Positions 36,714 through 59,033 of a DNA stretch of 64,000 nucleotides are shown in pieces. Numbering within the stretch: the first letter of the stretch is position 1; each line of letters opens with the position of its first letter. The notes beneath the pieces were generated by a model. The model ran no database searches, had not been told where the DNA came from, and saw only the letters and a list, made by a program, of their open reading frames with translations. The translations under genes were made by a program, and so were the position numbers. The DNA comes from Bacteroidales bacterium (GTDB taxonomy: Bacteria > Bacteroidota > Bacteroidia > Bacteroidales > Marinilabiliaceae), in the NCBI GenBank assembly GCA_024401295.1, contig JAKSLG010000001.1, positions 124,001 through 188,000 on the forward strand, written 5' to 3'.

Positions 36714-37868
36714 ATGAGAAAGATAATATTGGCATTGGTCGCATTGGCTGTCATGTCTGCTGTTAATGCACAGAATATCAGCTCTAAAATGTATGTCGAA
36801 GCGCTTAGGGACAGCGTTGAAAATGATTCTACGAACTGGAAAGCCATGCATAAGCTTGCACAATATTACAAAGAGCATTCGAATAGTCATAGAGCTTTGT
36901 TTTGGACAGAGAAGGCTCTCGGAATACATCAAAGCGATACGTTGCGTCGTGAACTGGCAACATGCTATTATAATCGCGGCTATTATCGGCAATGTATCGA
37001 TATTTGTCGCAGTATTGGTCTGTCAGAGCAGAATGCTGAAGATGCAACGGCACTTTATATGATTGCAAGATGCTATGATAACATGGAGATGGTGGATTCT
37101 GCATTGTCCTATCAGAGAATTGTTGCCGACATCGACATTGAGAATCAAGCGAATCTGATTTCGTTTTCAAAAAAGCTGATTTCGTTGCAGAGCGCTAAAG
37201 TCGCAATTAGCTATCTTGATAGATATCAGGAACTTGACAGCATGAATCTTGCGGTGAACAATGTACGCGCTTTTGCCTACTATAGTGCAGGAATGCCAAA
37301 AAAAGCGATCAGTATGTATGAACAGCTAATAAGCATTGGCGATACGTGTAAGCCGATGACATATTATTATCTCGGTATGGCTTATAATCAGAGAAATATG
37401 AGGCAGGAAGCATGGGAGTGTTTGAATAAGGCAAACAATATGCTTAGAAACAATAACCCAGTTGTACTTGCTCGTCTTGGTATTACGGCGCTAGACATTC
37501 CTGATTATGAAGAAGATGGACTTGAGAATATTCGAAAGGCTATTGAGCTGATGCAGCCCGATAAGGAAATGATGTTTACAATTTATTTTAGTTTGGGTGA
37601 TTATTATGTGACGCGCGATGTGAAAAAGGGAATCGAGTATTTCCATATGGCCGAAAGCTATAAACCGAATGATGTGAATCTGCTTTATCAGATTGGATAT
37701 TGCTACTTTATGGCTGGCAATGAGGATAAGGAATATCAATATTGGAGCAGATATCTCGAGTCTATGGGTGAAGATTCTGATGATATTGTCGTCAGCAGCG
37801 TAAAGAATATTCTCAAGAAAATCCGAGAAAAGCGTTTCATGGAGGGAAAGGAAGAGAAACCTTTATAA
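36714..37868 (+). CDS. Secreted tetratricopeptide-repeat protein
   Basis: This 384-residue protein has a signal peptide (MRKIILALVALAVMSAVNAQ) and about eight TPR-like helix pairs, for example AMHKLAQYYKEHSNSHRALF and GDYYVTRDVKKGIEYFHMAE. It should be a periplasmic or outer-membrane scaffold protein. No enzymatic domain is visible. It converges with trpD across a bidirectional terminator. Confidence 0.8.
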   Translation: MRKIILALVALAVMSAVNAQNISSKMYVEALRDSVENDSTNWKAMHKLAQYYKEHSNSHRALFWTEKALGIHQSDTLRRELATCYYNRGYYRQCIDICRSIGLSEQNAEDATALYMIARCYDNMEMVDSALSYQRIVADIDIENQANLISFSKKLISLQSAKVAISYLDRYQELDSMNLAVNNVRAFAYYSAGMPKKAISMYEQLISIGDTCKPMTYYYLGMAYNQRNMRQEAWECLNKANNMLRNNNPVVLARLGITALDIPDYEEDGLENIRKAIELMQPDKEMMFTIYFSLGDYYVTRDVKKGIEYFHMAESYKPNDVNLLYQIGYCYFMAGNEDKEYQYWSRYLESMGEDSDDIVVSSVKNILKKIREKRFMEGKEEKPL

Positions 37869-37913
37869 AAAAAACAGATGTCAGGAGGTCCCGACATCTG
37901 TCTTCTTTTTTTT
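37867..37913. terminator. Bidirectional terminator between TPR gene and trpD
   Basis: CAGATGTC/GACATCTG stem (with inner GGA/TCC pairing), flanked by an A run on the left and a T run on the right, so it can end transcription from both sides. Confidence 0.8.
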
Positions 37914-39542: not shown

Positions 39543-40943
39543 TTACATTCCTTCTGCCAAGAAGATGGCCTTGCGCAATGCACCAAGTTTGTTGTTGACT
39601 TCTTGAAGCTCATATTCTTCGTTGCTCTTTGCAACGATGCCACCACCTGCCTGGAACCACAATTCGTTGTTTCGGCTGACGAACGTACGTATTGTGATAG
39701 CTTGATTGAGAGAACCGTCGAATCCGATCAGTCCAATGCAACCTCCATATGCTCCGCGGTTGTGTGGCTCGATTTCGCTGATGAGCTGCATGGCTCTCAC
39801 CTTTGGAGCACCTGAAAGTGTCCCGGCAGGGAATGTATCGATGAATGACTTCACAGGATCTGCACCTTCATCAAGTTGTCCGCTGACACGGCTGACGAGG
39901 TGGATGACATGGCTGTAATATTGCATATCCTTATAGAAATCGACCTTCACATCGTGGCAATTGCGGCTGAGGTCGTTGCGTGCGAGGTCAACGAGCATAA
40001 CGTGTTCGGCGTTTTCTTTTGGATCGTTGCGCAGATAGAGCGCATTTTTCGCGTCTGTTTCGGCATCGCCGGTTCGCTTTGTCGTTCCTGCGATTGGATC
40101 GATGTATGCTGTCCGTTTCGATGTTATGCGGCAGTGTGTTTCTGGTGATGAACCGAAGATACGGAAGCCGCCCATGTCGAAGTAGAAGAGATATGGCGAA
40201 GGGTTGATGCTGCGCAAAGCTCGGTAGAGCTTGAAGTCGTCGCCCTCAAAACGCTGCTTGAAACGACGTGAGAGCACGATTTGGAAAACGTCGCCGCGCA
40301 AGCAGTGTGCAATACCTTTGCGGATGTTGGCTTTGTGCTCTTCATCCGTCAATGTGCTTGTCGTTTCACCCACAGGATGGAATCCGTAGTCCGTCGGATT
40401 GTTGCCATTCATCAGTTTCTCAATGCGATTGATATCGTCGTCCGCTCCGTCGGCCACAAGCTGAACGATGTGGAGCGAGTTGTTGAAATGGTCAAACGTG
40501 ATGATTGTCTTGAAGAGCACGTAGAGCACGTCTGGTGCATCGTTCATTGGCTGGGTTTCGTCCTTGACGTTGATGTTTTCAAAGTATCGGACAGCGTTGA
40601 ACGATGTATAACCAAAGAGACCGGAGTGAATAGCTTCGCCTTTGATGTCGAACGAACCAAGGAATTCGTTGATGGCCGCATCGCTCTGATAATCTTTGGT
40701 GATTGTTTTGCGCGTCGATTGGCCATCGGGATATGTGCATATAGCTTCGCCGTGGCTGATTGCTACGTTGGCAATAGGCTCGATGCCAATGAACGAGCAG
40801 GCATTTTCGCCACCATGATAGTCAGAGCTCTCCATCAGTGCGCTCTGCGTATATAGGTCTCGCAGCTTCATATAGAGGCTGACTGGCGTGTGAAGGTCGC
40901 CGAGGAGACTCTTTTTGACAGTTGTGTATGAATATTTCTTCAT
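39543..40943 (-). CDS. trpE: Anthranilate synthase component I
   Basis: This 466-residue chorismate-binding enzyme makes anthranilate with TrpG. Visible are the LMESSDYH region of the tryptophan feedback site near residue 40, the IAGTTKRTGD segment, and the AGTLSGAPKVRAM active-site region. The start MKKYSYTT (40943; ATG 40949 is possible) is chosen because the longer frame starts inside the leader terminator. Expression is preceded by a leader peptide and attenuator, so it is probably controlled by tryptophan at two levels. Confidence 0.95.
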   Translation of the reverse strand: MKKYSYTTVKKSLLGDLHTPVSLYMKLRDLYTQSALMESSDYHGGENACSFIGIEPIANVAISHGEAICTYPDGQSTRKTITKDYQSDAAINEFLGSFDIKGEAIHSGLFGYTSFNAVRYFENINVKDETQPMNDAPDVLYVLFKTIITFDHFNNSLHIVQLVADGADDDINRIEKLMNGNNPTDYGFHPVGETTSTLTDEEHKANIRKGIAHCLRGDVFQIVLSRRFKQRFEGDDFKLYRALRSINPSPYLFYFDMGGFRIFGSSPETHCRITSKRTAYIDPIAGTTKRTGDAETDAKNALYLRNDPKENAEHVMLVDLARNDLSRNCHDVKVDFYKDMQYYSHVIHLVSRVSGQLDEGADPVKSFIDTFPAGTLSGAPKVRAMQLISEIEPHNRGAYGGCIGLIGFDGSLNQAITIRTFVSRNNELWFQAGGGIVAKSNEEYELQEVNNKLGALRKAIFLAEGM

Positions 40944-40949
40944 TTGCAT

Positions 40950-40983
40950 AAAAAATTTAAGGCCCACCGGAGTTCGGCAGGCC
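40950..40983 (-). terminator. Attenuator terminator in the trpE leader
   Basis: On the minus strand GGCCTGCCG and CGGTGGGCC pair (9 bp with two G-T) around AACTC, followed by TTAAATTTTTT. It lies between the Trp-codon leader peptide and the trpE start, the position of a classical trp attenuator. Confidence 0.8.
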
Positions 40984-41033
40984 TTTGTTCTATTGTTTCG
41001 AGAATCACAAATAGGCTGATGCTCACACCCCGG

Positions 41034-41087
41034 TTATGAAAGGATGCTGCGCCACCACCACATATTGCTGTTTCTCTTCATTGTCAT
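41034..41087 (-). CDS. trpL: trp operon leader peptide
   Basis: ATG at 41087, 17 codons and TAA at 41034-41036, encoding MTMKRNSNMWWWRSILS. Three consecutive Trp codons in a 17-residue peptide in a 155-base leader ahead of a terminator and trpE are the hallmark of ribosome-mediated attenuation: stalling at the Trp codons when tryptophan is scarce should prevent the terminator from forming. The proposed transcript start is about ten bases upstream. A second in-frame ATG is at 41081. A competing stem (GAGCATCA/TGATTCTC, one mismatch) lies between peptide and terminator; I could not settle the antiterminator pairing by eye. Confidence 0.85.
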   Translation of the reverse strand: MTMKRNSNMWWWRSILS

Positions 41088-41103
41088 TTCTTAATTATCG
41101 ATG

Positions 41104-41134
41104 CAAAAATGCTAACATTTTTTCAATATTGCAA
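41104..41134 (-). promoter_or_regulatory. Promoter of the trp leader and trpEGD
   Basis: On the minus strand TTG (41132-41134), 20-base spacer and CATTTTTG (41104-41111, one mismatch to TAnnTTTG). The -33 TTG lies in one arm of the inverted repeat below. Confidence 0.6.
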
Positions 41135-41148
41135 CAATGGTTGCGAAA
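41127..41148. promoter_or_regulatory. Putative trp operator at trpE
   Basis: GCAAC (41131-41135), AATG, GTTGC (41140-41144) form an inverted repeat covering the -33 element. The same core with the same four-base gap is found upstream of trpB at 62932-62945. This suggests binding of a dimeric repressor shared by both units. Confidence 0.65.
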
Positions 41149-41161
41149 ATTTTCAAAAAAA

Positions 41162-41917
41162 TTATCGATTTTTCTTTCCGAGCAGGCTGAGCATAGCGTT
41201 GACGAATGTCAATGGATGTGTCGGATTGCCTGGAATGTAGAGATCAACATGGTATTTGTCGAGCACTTTGCGATCAACGGCAGGGCTGTCTTCGAAAAGA
41301 CCACCGCTGATGGCATCTGTACCAACGAGAATCAGAACTTTCGGGTCCGGAGTGCAATTGATTGCATCTTCGAGCGGTGCTGCCATGTTTTCGCTGATCG
41401 GACCTGTTGCAACGATGCCGTCTGCGTGGCGTGGCGATGCAACAAAGTCAATACCAAAACGGCCTATGTCGAAGTTGACATTACCGGTTGCGTTGAGTTC
41501 CATTTCGCAGCTTGCGTCGCCGCCAGCCGACACTTGACGCAACTTTATCGACTTGTTGAAAAGTTTGCGCACTTCTGGGCGAATCTTAGATTCATCGAGC
41601 GTGATAGGCTTGTCTTCGCCTGCCTTGACAATGAGACCTTCGCGCGTGTTTGAAGCCAGTTTGTAGTCCTTTGTGAATTTTATTTTTTCTGGACATGCAA
41701 AAGCACATTCGCCGCAGAACGAGCATCGGCCAAGGTCGATCGTCATTGGATGAGTGCCGATCGCGTTCATCGGACAGAGTTCGGCAAGCGCCTCTTCATC
41801 AACTTCAGCATTGCTGATGACCGGACGTCCACGAAAAACACCAGGAACGTCAGTCGTTGTCACATCGGGAATATACTGCTTTCCCTGATGAAGCCATATT
41901 TTGAGTGTATTTAACAT
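41162..41917 (-). CDS. Ehr-type small subunit with N-terminal ferredoxin domain
   Basis: In this 251-residue protein an N-terminal ferredoxin-like part (Cys48 in LCP, then C65xxC68xxC71xxxC75P) is fused to a NuoB/HycG-like part. The ferredoxin part can bind one complete cluster. In the NuoB-like part only Cys137 (DASCEMEL) of the usual four ligands remains; positions expected to be Cys are Asp134, Asp201 (LVGTDAISGG) and Asn231 (YIPGNPTHP). The proximal cluster is therefore probably absent. It follows the large subunit gene by 27 bases and should face the cytoplasm on the membrane complex. Confidence 0.82.
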   Translation of the reverse strand: MLNTLKIWLHQGKQYIPDVTTTDVPGVFRGRPVISNAEVDEEALAELCPMNAIGTHPMTIDLGRCSFCGECAFACPEKIKFTKDYKLASNTREGLIVKAGEDKPITLDESKIRPEVRKLFNKSIKLRQVSAGGDASCEMELNATGNVNFDIGRFGIDFVASPRHADGIVATGPISENMAAPLEDAINCTPDPKVLILVGTDAISGGLFEDSPAVDRKVLDKYHVDLYIPGNPTHPLTFVNAMLSLLGKKNR

Positions 41918-56958: not shown

Positions 56959-57753
56959 ATGGGAAACTACCTCGACAAGATAATGGCCACTAAGGCCGAG
57001 TGTGTTGCTTCTGCAAAACGCAAGGTGTCGCTGGCCGACGTGAAATCAATGTGCGCCGACGCGCGTCCTTCTGTTCCTTTTGCAAAGAGCATCCGCGAGA
57101 AGAACGGCATAATTGCCGAATTCAAGCGTCAGTCGCCTTCAAAAGGCCTCATACATGGCAATATCTTTCCGCGTGAAGTGGTGCAATATTACGAGGAAGC
57201 TGGCGTCAGCGCAATATCTGTCCTTACCGACGAACAGTTCTTCGGCGGAACGATTTCCGATGTCCGCGAAGCAAGTTCACTGGTCAACATTCCTATCCTT
57301 CGCAAGGAGTTCATCAACGATCCTTATCAGGTTTACGAGGCTCGTGCCAATGGTGCGTCAGCAATGCTCCTCATTGCCGCTGTTCTCGAACGCAGTCAGG
57401 CTGAAGATCTTGCCGGACTTGCCAAGGAGCTTGGTCTTGAGGTTCTTATGGAGCTTCATAACGAGGATGAATTCGGCTATATCGTGCCAGGCGTTACTGT
57501 CGCCGGCATCAACAACCGCGACCTTCGCACGTTTGTCGTCGACCTTCACCATTCCATCAAGATGGCACACATGCTGCCAAACGAACTCCCAAAGATTTCA
57601 GAGAGTGGCATCCGCACCATCGACGATATGCTCATGCTCCGCGAAGGCGGTTTCGACGGATTCCTCATTGGCGAGAACTTCATGAAGAACGAGAATCCTG
57701 GACCTTCATGCATAGAGTTCTGTAAGAAATATGCCGAAGCGCTAAGTAAATAA
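56959..57753 (+). CDS. trpC: Indole-3-glycerol phosphate synthase
   Basis: This 264-residue TIM barrel has the IGPS motifs IIAEFKRQSPSKG, ISVLTDEQFFGG, ILRKEFINDPYQV and SESGIRTIDDM. It closes the indole ring from the TrpF product. It is the first gene of the plus-strand unit trpC-unknown-trpF, divergent from mnmD. Confidence 0.95.
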   Translation: MGNYLDKIMATKAECVASAKRKVSLADVKSMCADARPSVPFAKSIREKNGIIAEFKRQSPSKGLIHGNIFPREVVQYYEEAGVSAISVLTDEQFFGGTISDVREASSLVNIPILRKEFINDPYQVYEARANGASAMLLIAAVLERSQAEDLAGLAKELGLEVLMELHNEDEFGYIVPGVTVAGINNRDLRTFVVDLHHSIKMAHMLPNELPKISESGIRTIDDMLMLREGGFDGFLIGENFMKNENPGPSCIEFCKKYAEALSK

Positions 57754-57784: not shown

Positions 57785-58399
57785 ATGAAAAAGAGACTAT
57801 TGACCATCCTTCTCGCGCTGACAGCCATTACGGCCGGCGCACAAACAGTGAAGTGTGTCGAGCCAGACGCACAGGCATACATAGACCTGTTGACTCTTGC
57901 AGGATACAAGGCCTACAAGTTCGAGATACCCGAATCGGCAGTAGGCCATATGGCAAGGTTCGTGATAAAGGAGTTCAAAGATGGCAAGGAGGTCAGTTTG
58001 GATGAAAGCGACTTCGGCAGCATGATAAACTCGTTCTCCTTTGATGTAGGCTCGTCAACGATAATCGTAGGATTCCTGCCAGAGAAAGAGGGCGTGCCGA
58101 TGCGCACGGTGGCAATCAAATGGAAAGGCTCGATGGACTTGGCGGGCCCGTTTGTGTACAAGTATCTGATAACCGACTGTATAGACTTTATGACTGGTGA
58201 CAAGAGAGAGCCATACAGCTATTACAACACTGTGGAGAACAAAGAAGAGATTGAATACAAGGAAAAAACCTTCTTGCCATTGTGTCTGCTCGGTTCGGCA
58301 TATAACGTCCCAGACCAAGGGTACAAGTTCTGCGGTGATTTCAAGGACCTCTGCGAATCATCTCCACATTATTATGTAATAGGTATAGTAATATTCTAA
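57785..58399 (+). CDS. Secreted unknown protein between trpC and trpF
   Basis: This 204-residue protein has a signal peptide (MKKRLLTILLALTAITAGAQ), so it is exported, unlike its enzymatic neighbours. The mature part resembles small DUF5041-like Bacteroidales proteins, a guess from general appearance only. It lies 31 bases after trpC and 13 before trpF on the same strand, so it is in the tryptophan unit. Its codon use is somewhat more A-rich than trpC and trpF, suggesting insertion into the operon. Confidence 0.7.
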   Translation: MKKRLLTILLALTAITAGAQTVKCVEPDAQAYIDLLTLAGYKAYKFEIPESAVGHMARFVIKEFKDGKEVSLDESDFGSMINSFSFDVGSSTIIVGFLPEKEGVPMRTVAIKWKGSMDLAGPFVYKYLITDCIDFMTGDKREPYSYYNTVENKEEIEYKEKTFLPLCLLGSAYNVPDQGYKFCGDFKDLCESSPHYYVIGIVIF

Positions 58400-58412: not shown

Positions 58413-59033
58413 ATGCAACGTCCACTTGTCAAGATATGCGGCATGACCGATATCGACAACATCAGTCAGATGTTGTTCCTCGAGCCCGATTTTCTCGGCT
58501 TCATCTTCTATCCGAAATCGCCTCGTTATGTTGTCGGCAAGCTCAAGCCTGATATGCTCAGCATCATTCCCGATACCGTCAAGCGCGTTGGCGTCTTCGT
58601 CAACAGCACCGAAGCCGAGATGCGTCAGATGGCAAGTCTGTACGGCCTTAAGGTTATTCAGCTTCATGGCGATGAAAAGCCTACGGTTTGCAAGCGTCTG
58701 CGCGAAGAAGGCTATGAGGTCATCAAGGCATTCAGCATTGCCAGCGAGTCCGATTTCGAGAAAATATGGGCCTACGAGGATGTCGTTGATTACTATCTTT
58801 TCGATACCAAGACTCCGGGATATGGTGGTAGCGGTCAGGAGTTCGACTGGCATCTGATACTTCGTCAGCCTATCCGTAAGCCTTGGTTCTTGTCGGGCGG
58901 CATCAGCCCAGAGAACATTGTCGCTGCTGCCCAGATTGGCGCTTATGTACTCGATCTCAACAGCAAATTCGAAACATCACCTGGCATCAAGGACTACAGA
59001 CGCCTGCAAGCTGCCCTTGCCTCGCTGAAATGA
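58413..59033 (+). CDS. trpF: Phosphoribosylanthranilate isomerase
   Basis: This 206-residue TIM barrel begins with VKICGMTDIDN and has LGFIFYPKSPRYV, VGVFVNS, IQLHGDEKP and FLSGGISPENI. It converts phosphoribosylanthranilate to the CdRP substrate of TrpC. A terminator follows at 59188. Confidence 0.94.
   Translation: MQRPLVKICGMTDIDNISQMLFLEPDFLGFIFYPKSPRYVVGKLKPDMLSIIPDTVKRVGVFVNSTEAEMRQMASLYGLKVIQLHGDEKPTVCKRLREEGYEVIKAFSIASESDFEKIWAYEDVVDYYLFDTKTPGYGGSGQEFDWHLILRQPIRKPWFLSGGISPENIVAAAQIGAYVLDLNSKFETSPGIKDYRRLQAALASLK

Follow-up and report, generated by a model that had tools for sequence, protein, structure and literature searches.

What controls the trpEGD operon in this Bacteroidales genome? 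In the window, by which we mean the whole 64,000-nucleotide stretch of DNA that was analysed, trpE, trpG and trpD lie on the same (minus) strand, downstream of the element described below. trpE, for anthranilate synthase component I, occupies 40949-39543 and is read from the ATG at 40949, with an alternative start at 40943; TIGR00564 was its best family at 417.1 bits, a score below the curated cut-off of 517.7. The glutamine amidotransferase of anthranilate synthase is encoded by trpG at 39521-38958 (TIGR00566, 192.6 bits, above the cut-off of 121.05) and anthranilate phosphoribosyltransferase by trpD at 38929-37928 (TIGR01245, 285.7 bits, above the cut-off of 199.05). The trpD start is the ATG after the TTG start of the frame, and the query in the TIGR01245 search was one codon longer. 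Among the best 80 of 586 TrpE relatives, the nearest named ones belong to Bacteroidales metagenome genomes. trpD converges with the next gene, which ends at 37868 on the plus strand, and where the two meet there is a hairpin with a T run at about 37862-37905; read by eye, this hairpin is probably a two-way terminator. At the other end of the operon, the gene upstream of the leader is on the same strand and ends at 41162, about 75 nt from the leader start.

Between that gene and trpE lies a leader peptide ORF, MTMKRNSNMWWWRSILS, at 41087-41034 on the minus strand, which was read from the sequence and is conserved in relatives. It opens with the ATG at 41087, runs for 17 sense codons to the stop codon TAA at 41036-41034, and carries TGG TGG TGG in frame at 41060-41052 (minus strand). 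The first-pass annotation had claimed a 17-codon frame with three consecutive Trp codons, and direct reading confirmed it. The sequence TGGTGGTGG occurs in 31 copies on both strands of the 2.3-Mb genome, from which about 0.001 copies are expected per 160-nt leader, even before a frame or an ORF is required. The sigma-ABfr promoter consensus is given as TAnnTTTG / TTTG in a passage of PMC7366714. Matched by eye, CATTTTTG at 41111-41104 (minus strand) would be a sigma-ABfr-like -7 box with one mismatch to TAnnTTTG, and the TTG at 41134-41132 (minus strand) a possible -33 box by comparison with TTTG. The transcription start proposed near 41097 fits the position of this box.

Just ahead of trpE, the hairpin with a T run that the first-pass annotation had described was found as an intrinsic terminator on the minus strand. 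Its stem at 40985-40959 has 11 bp including two G-U pairs, with a 5-nt loop (AACTC) and an energy of -18.3 kcal/mol; it is followed by AAA at 40958-40956 and a T6 run at 40955-40950 (minus strand) that adjoins the trpE start codon. Since AAA stands between the stem and the T6 run, the U-run begins 3 nt past the stem, slightly off the textbook form. The leader RNA from 41097 to 40951 folds at -43.5 kcal/mol, with a z of -2.74 against shuffles. An antiterminator, for which a search had been suggested, was found as well. The core of its 5' side, ACCGGGGT at 41034-41027, is complementary to ACTCCGGT at 40973-40966, whose bases belong to the terminator's loop and 3' arm. Three shorter helices, with 5' strands at 41025-41024, 41022-41020 and 41016-41013, extend the pairing out to GCCT (41016-41013) with AGGC (40984-40981), so that the 5' side spans 41034-41013 and the 3' side 40984-40966 on the minus strand, the latter overlapping the terminator. 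The two structures are mutually exclusive, except as a pseudoknot. When the window RNA was ended at 40966, the antiterminator was the best fold at -22.9 kcal/mol, whereas at full length the terminator state reached -28.6 kcal/mol as compared with -23.7 kcal/mol for the antiterminator state. Because the terminator is favoured at full length, a choice of the antiterminator would have to be kinetic and made while the RNA is being made. Known attenuators likewise decide during RNA synthesis.

Is this arrangement peculiar to one genome, or is it kept in relatives? TrpE searches gave 160 loci, from which 7 without upstream sequence and 2 exact duplicates were dropped, leaving 151 including the window; only exact duplicates were removed and near-duplicates may remain among the 151. 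In one of these searches just the best 80 of 586 relatives were taken, so the sample is tilted to close TrpE relatives. A leader was called when an ATG frame of 6-45 codons held at least two Trp within 5 codons and its stop lay 20-300 nt before the first trp gene. By this rule 138 of the 151 distinct loci have a leader ahead of trpE or trpB, whichever trp gene comes first, as compared with 5.0 expected from shuffles, and at least three Trp in 5 codons are found in 105 of 151 loci against 0.0 expected, where the expected counts are the mean of 10 dinucleotide shuffles per locus. In 77 loci no trpB was found ahead of trpE, and 72 of these have a leader. In the other 74, where trpB is ahead of trpE, a leader stands before trpB in 66. 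Since the leader is found before trpB in the trpB-first loci, it belongs to the front of the operon and not to trpE. Close relatives that appeared to be without a leader were rejected as such, most having trpB-first operons with the leader ahead of trpB.

The rule failed in 13 loci (L011, L026, L032, L047, L051, L061, L067, L091, L095, L096, L111, L113 and L124). Among these, L026, L124 and L032 have a leader further upstream, and L011 is a trpB-first operon with a two-Trp leader by eye. A leader call at L016, one of seven loci without enough flank, was rejected; it looks like a frame within a gene. Of the 138 leaders, 125 are followed by a terminator under a rule that allowed a spacer before the T run, such as the AAA of the window. 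The comparison of leaders among relatives, called for by the first-pass annotation, therefore found the Trp-rich leader conserved. That annotation had also held that relatives with trpE and without the Trp codons or the hairpin would speak against its reading. Such relatives are mostly absent, and the exceptions are the 13 loci that fail the leader rule and the 13 leaders without a terminator by rule.

The 125 loci with both leader and terminator carry 86 different sequence pairs in their antiterminator strands. When the strands of each locus were paired with each other, the pairing score was 17.53, as compared with 13.30 for strands swapped between loci, and it was above the median swap in 113 of 125. 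The duplex energy likewise changed from -19.77 kcal/mol for own strands to -15.74 kcal/mol for swapped ones, own strands being better in 109 of 125; the P-values of both tests over the 125 loci ignore relatedness. A control segment, the part of the leader 5' of the Trp codons, showed no effect (own 9.09, swapped 9.13, p 0.24). As relatedness can inflate the result of a swap, 62 disjoint pairs of nearest TrpE relatives differing in both strands were compared. Own strands outscored swapped ones in 32 pairs, tied in 21 and fell behind in 9 (sign test, p 0.0004), whereas in the control segment own was better in 20, tied in 18 and worse in 24. The compensatory stem changes that had been proposed as a check are thus seen in the antiterminator, also between nearest relatives.

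The position of the antiterminator strand is also constrained. In 121 of 125 loci it starts 15-23 nt past the last Trp codon, with a median of 20 and a standard deviation of 2.6; when the letters of the strand were shuffled, just 19% of starts fell in this range and the standard deviation was 14.4. The position relative to the stop codon is more variable than that relative to the Trp codons. Such spacing would suit a distance measured off by a ribosome that stalls at the Trp codons. When the RNA was cut off at the 3' edge of the antiterminator, the best fold contained the antiterminator helix in 119 of 125 loci, a count that is partly by construction, as the helix at each locus is the best available one, and that is answered only by the swap and shuffle controls. 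In the full-length RNA the terminator had the lower energy of the two in 124 of 125, by a median of 8.7 kcal/mol. A ribosome at the stop codon would hide the whole 5' strand in 121 of 125 loci, assuming that it covers 12 nt past the stop, the coverage given in a passage of PMC4833913.

How, then, would these parts act on one another? RNA polymerase would start near 41097 and a ribosome would load on the leader. When charged tRNA-Trp is scarce, the ribosome would stall on the three Trp codons with its front edge short of 41034, so that ACCGGGGT and the following bases could pair with the terminator's top and 5' arm as soon as these leave the polymerase. Once the antiterminator has formed, before the 3' arm is complete, transcription would continue into trpE. 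When tryptophan is plentiful, the ribosome would instead reach the stop codon and cover ACCGGGGT, the 11-bp hairpin would form, and transcription would end at the T run. The start site, the stalling, the way polymerase and ribosome are coupled and the tryptophan response are the parts of the scheme that we infer.

Other readings of the same sequence have to be weighed against this scheme. The leader could act mainly on translation, its translation or stalling opening or closing the start region of trpE, with termination secondary. In the window the T run abuts the ATG at 40949, the end of the hairpin lying 10 nt ahead of it; the hairpin could also hide the start region here. In many of the relatives listed, however, some 25-75 nt separate the end of the hairpin from the start codon chosen. 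A translational switch also needs no T-rich run, yet the hairpins of the relatives listed carry such runs, and we consider this reading very unlikely. It is known that TRAP and T-box type systems control trp genes elsewhere, and a tryptophan- or tRNA-binding factor, such as a TRAP-like protein or a T-box-like RNA, could read tryptophan in place of the ribosome. Apart from that precedent nothing in favour was found, and this is to our judgment an extremely improbable explanation. The spacing is tight when counted from the Trp codons, which lie in frame, and no T-box match was obtained from Rfam, either in the window at the gathering score or in 40900-41200 at E up to 10.

The ORF might also be a matter of chance, the hairpin being a simple terminator or an insulator for the gene upstream, which ends at 41162. 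A terminator between genes on the same strand is ordinary, and that gene ends only some 75 nt before the leader. Chance nevertheless sits poorly with the excess of leaders over shuffles (138 against 5.0 of 151), the covariation of the antiterminator and the narrow spacing, or with a leader that also stands before trpB where trpB comes first; the probability of this reading is close to nil. Ribosome-mediated attenuation, on the other hand, is strongly supported by the frequency of the leader, the pairing of the antiterminator and the narrow spacing in the comparison. A short ORF with clustered Trp codons lies ahead of a trp operon, an intrinsic terminator precedes the first gene, and in silico there is an exclusive antiterminator whose 5' strand is free at the Trp stall and covered at the stop codon. 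The classical attenuation read by the first-pass annotation is upheld by the Trp codons, the terminator, the exclusive and covarying antiterminator and the spacing, and we are highly confident, on these comparative grounds, that the element controls the trpEGD operon by ribosome-mediated transcription attenuation.

The reach of the leader was examined in a sample of 148 genomes of the phylum, 80 of which had a TrpE match at E 1e-80 or better, including the window's own genome. Of the 79 other loci, 10 gave no TrpE alignment and were left out. The leader rule was slightly wider here (stop 15-350 nt before the gene) and the counts are without a shuffle control. A Trp-rich leader was found in 32 of the 32 judged loci of the same class as the window, 27 of them with at least three Trp in 5 codons, and outside the class in 26 of 37, 25 of them with at least three Trp in 5 codons. 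L233, one of five weaker leaders in the same class, is probably a chance call and that of L290 looks like one; L250 has no real terminator (-4.0). Classical trp attenuation is supported as the ordinary trp control in the lineage, also where the present Rfam model does not reach, and the element now has a testable antiterminator and a measured spacing attached to it.

The window genome carries its trp genes in three separate units over both strands. Besides trpEGD there are trpBA at 62874-60873 on the minus strand and trpC (56959-57753) and trpF (58413-59033) on the plus strand; trpA, trpC and trpF were named by eye from the sequence. An unrelated, secreted-looking ORF (57785-58399, by eye) lies between trpC and trpF. 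No leader peptide was seen by eye at the trpBA unit. Among 15 genus members, including the window's own, trpB is at most 35 nt behind an upstream gene, read as trpF by eye, in 11. One member, G003, has two near-identical WWW attenuators, one before trpB and one before trpE (L314 1338-1397 and L012 1340-1399). The TrpE sequences of the genus (G001-G014 compared with the window's G000) form two groups, with 72-85% and 48-50% identity to the TrpE of the window, which differ in leader wording, mostly WWW versus WWRW, while TrpB stays at 66-94%; the trpE unit may have been replaced. The rearranged operons form a natural series, with the switch moved, duplicated or missing.

An 18-bp inverted repeat, TTGCAAC-N4-GTTGCAA, is common to the trpBA unit and the trpE promoter. 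It is present as TTGCAACCGCTGTTGCAA at 62947-62930, over the -33 region of a trpB promoter with a perfect TATCTTTG, and as TCGCAACCATTGTTGCAA at 41146-41129, over the -33 region of trpE and with one mismatch to the pattern, which was chosen after sight of these two sites. The window genome has 4 sites at up to one mismatch, as compared with 3 for the reversed control, and two of the 4 are the trpB and trpE sites. Four genus members have no close gene upstream of trpB. Three of them carry the repeat before trpB (the window's own and G004 with 0 mismatches, G005 with 2), and in G003 the second attenuator copy takes the place of the repeat. Over the 15 genus members there are 32 sites at up to one mismatch and 15 for the reversed control pattern, and the repeat is not clearly enriched genome-wide. 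Judged by coordinates, three of the 32 precede a trp gene (trpB in G004, and both trpB and trpE in the window genome), and the repeat was not seen before trpE in 11 other loci scanned. It is a possible operator of a further regulator, a second layer of control, and should be taken as a lead and not as a finding. The Trp-repressor family (PF01371) was found in 0 of 7 genomes, a search in which controls were positive in 2 of 14 and the window's own genome is only 75% complete. We tentatively suggest, at rather less than even chances, that the Bacteroidota attenuator moves with whichever gene comes first in a rearranging trp operon. A detached unit would either have its own copy, as for trpB and trpE in G003, or come under a putative repressor at TTGCAAC-N4-GTTGCAA over the -33 box, which would be the case in the window genome and two relatives; the same site at the trpE of the window would then give two-layer control without TrpR.

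How does the element compare with those already known? The first-pass annotation took trp attenuation to be less known in Bacteroidota, which needs correction: a leader RNA of Bacteroidetes trp operons was published in a 2010 comparative study (Weinberg 2010, PMC2864571) and is Bacteroid-trp (RF01692) in Rfam. As RF01692 dates from 2010, the attenuator of the window is not new in kind. RF01692 gave no match in the scan of the window at the gathering score of 49; in a 301-base search it scored 29.0 bits (E 0.19), and model positions 1-131 align end to end with 41101-40976, with several broken pairs. By this alignment, we regard the window copy as a divergent relative of RF01692 that Rfam misses. 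Both are leaders of Bacteroidetes trp operons with tandem Trp codons. The alignment ends at the 5' arm of the window terminator. In the structure line of RF01692, unlike in our reading, the Trp-codon region is base-paired and the end toward the terminator is not. Three Bacteroides loci (L088, L099 and L119) score 92.6-99.7 bits to RF01692 and have the same layout of leader, terminator and antiterminator as the window. Two other sources score 55.8 and 49.7; in all, 5 of 20 sources in one set reach 49, and 0 of 14 in another (best 48.7).

A 2019 paper likens this element, as it stands before the Flavobacterium psychrophilum trp operon, to the E. coli trp leader (PMC6414381), and a transcriptome study of that species reports clues of leader-peptide attenuation before amino-acid operons (PMC9723704). 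Within the window genome itself, about 2 kb to the left of the window (L248, G000:C1:121902), a His leader, MNTLHHHHHHTDD, lies ahead of hisG, a leader peptide like that of trp with a different amino acid. The hisG leaders of three relatives, MNALHHHHHHHTDD, MILNVHHHHHHHSLQQ and MNNLHQHHHHHTDD, have 6-7 His, one run being broken by Gln. The enteric Trp leader family, which we take to be RF00513, had no match in the scan of the window or in the search of 40900-41200.

The Escherichia coli trp attenuator combines a tandem-Trp leader peptide, alternative hairpins and a terminator before trpE. Background on this attenuator is given in PMC4833913. Unlike in E. coli, no Trp-repressor family protein was found in the window genome, which is 75% complete, and the antiterminator of the window is predicted to pair with the loop and 3' arm of the terminator besides the 5' arm. 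In its tandem-Trp leader peptide, its alternative hairpins and its terminator ahead of trpE, the window element resembles the E. coli attenuator.
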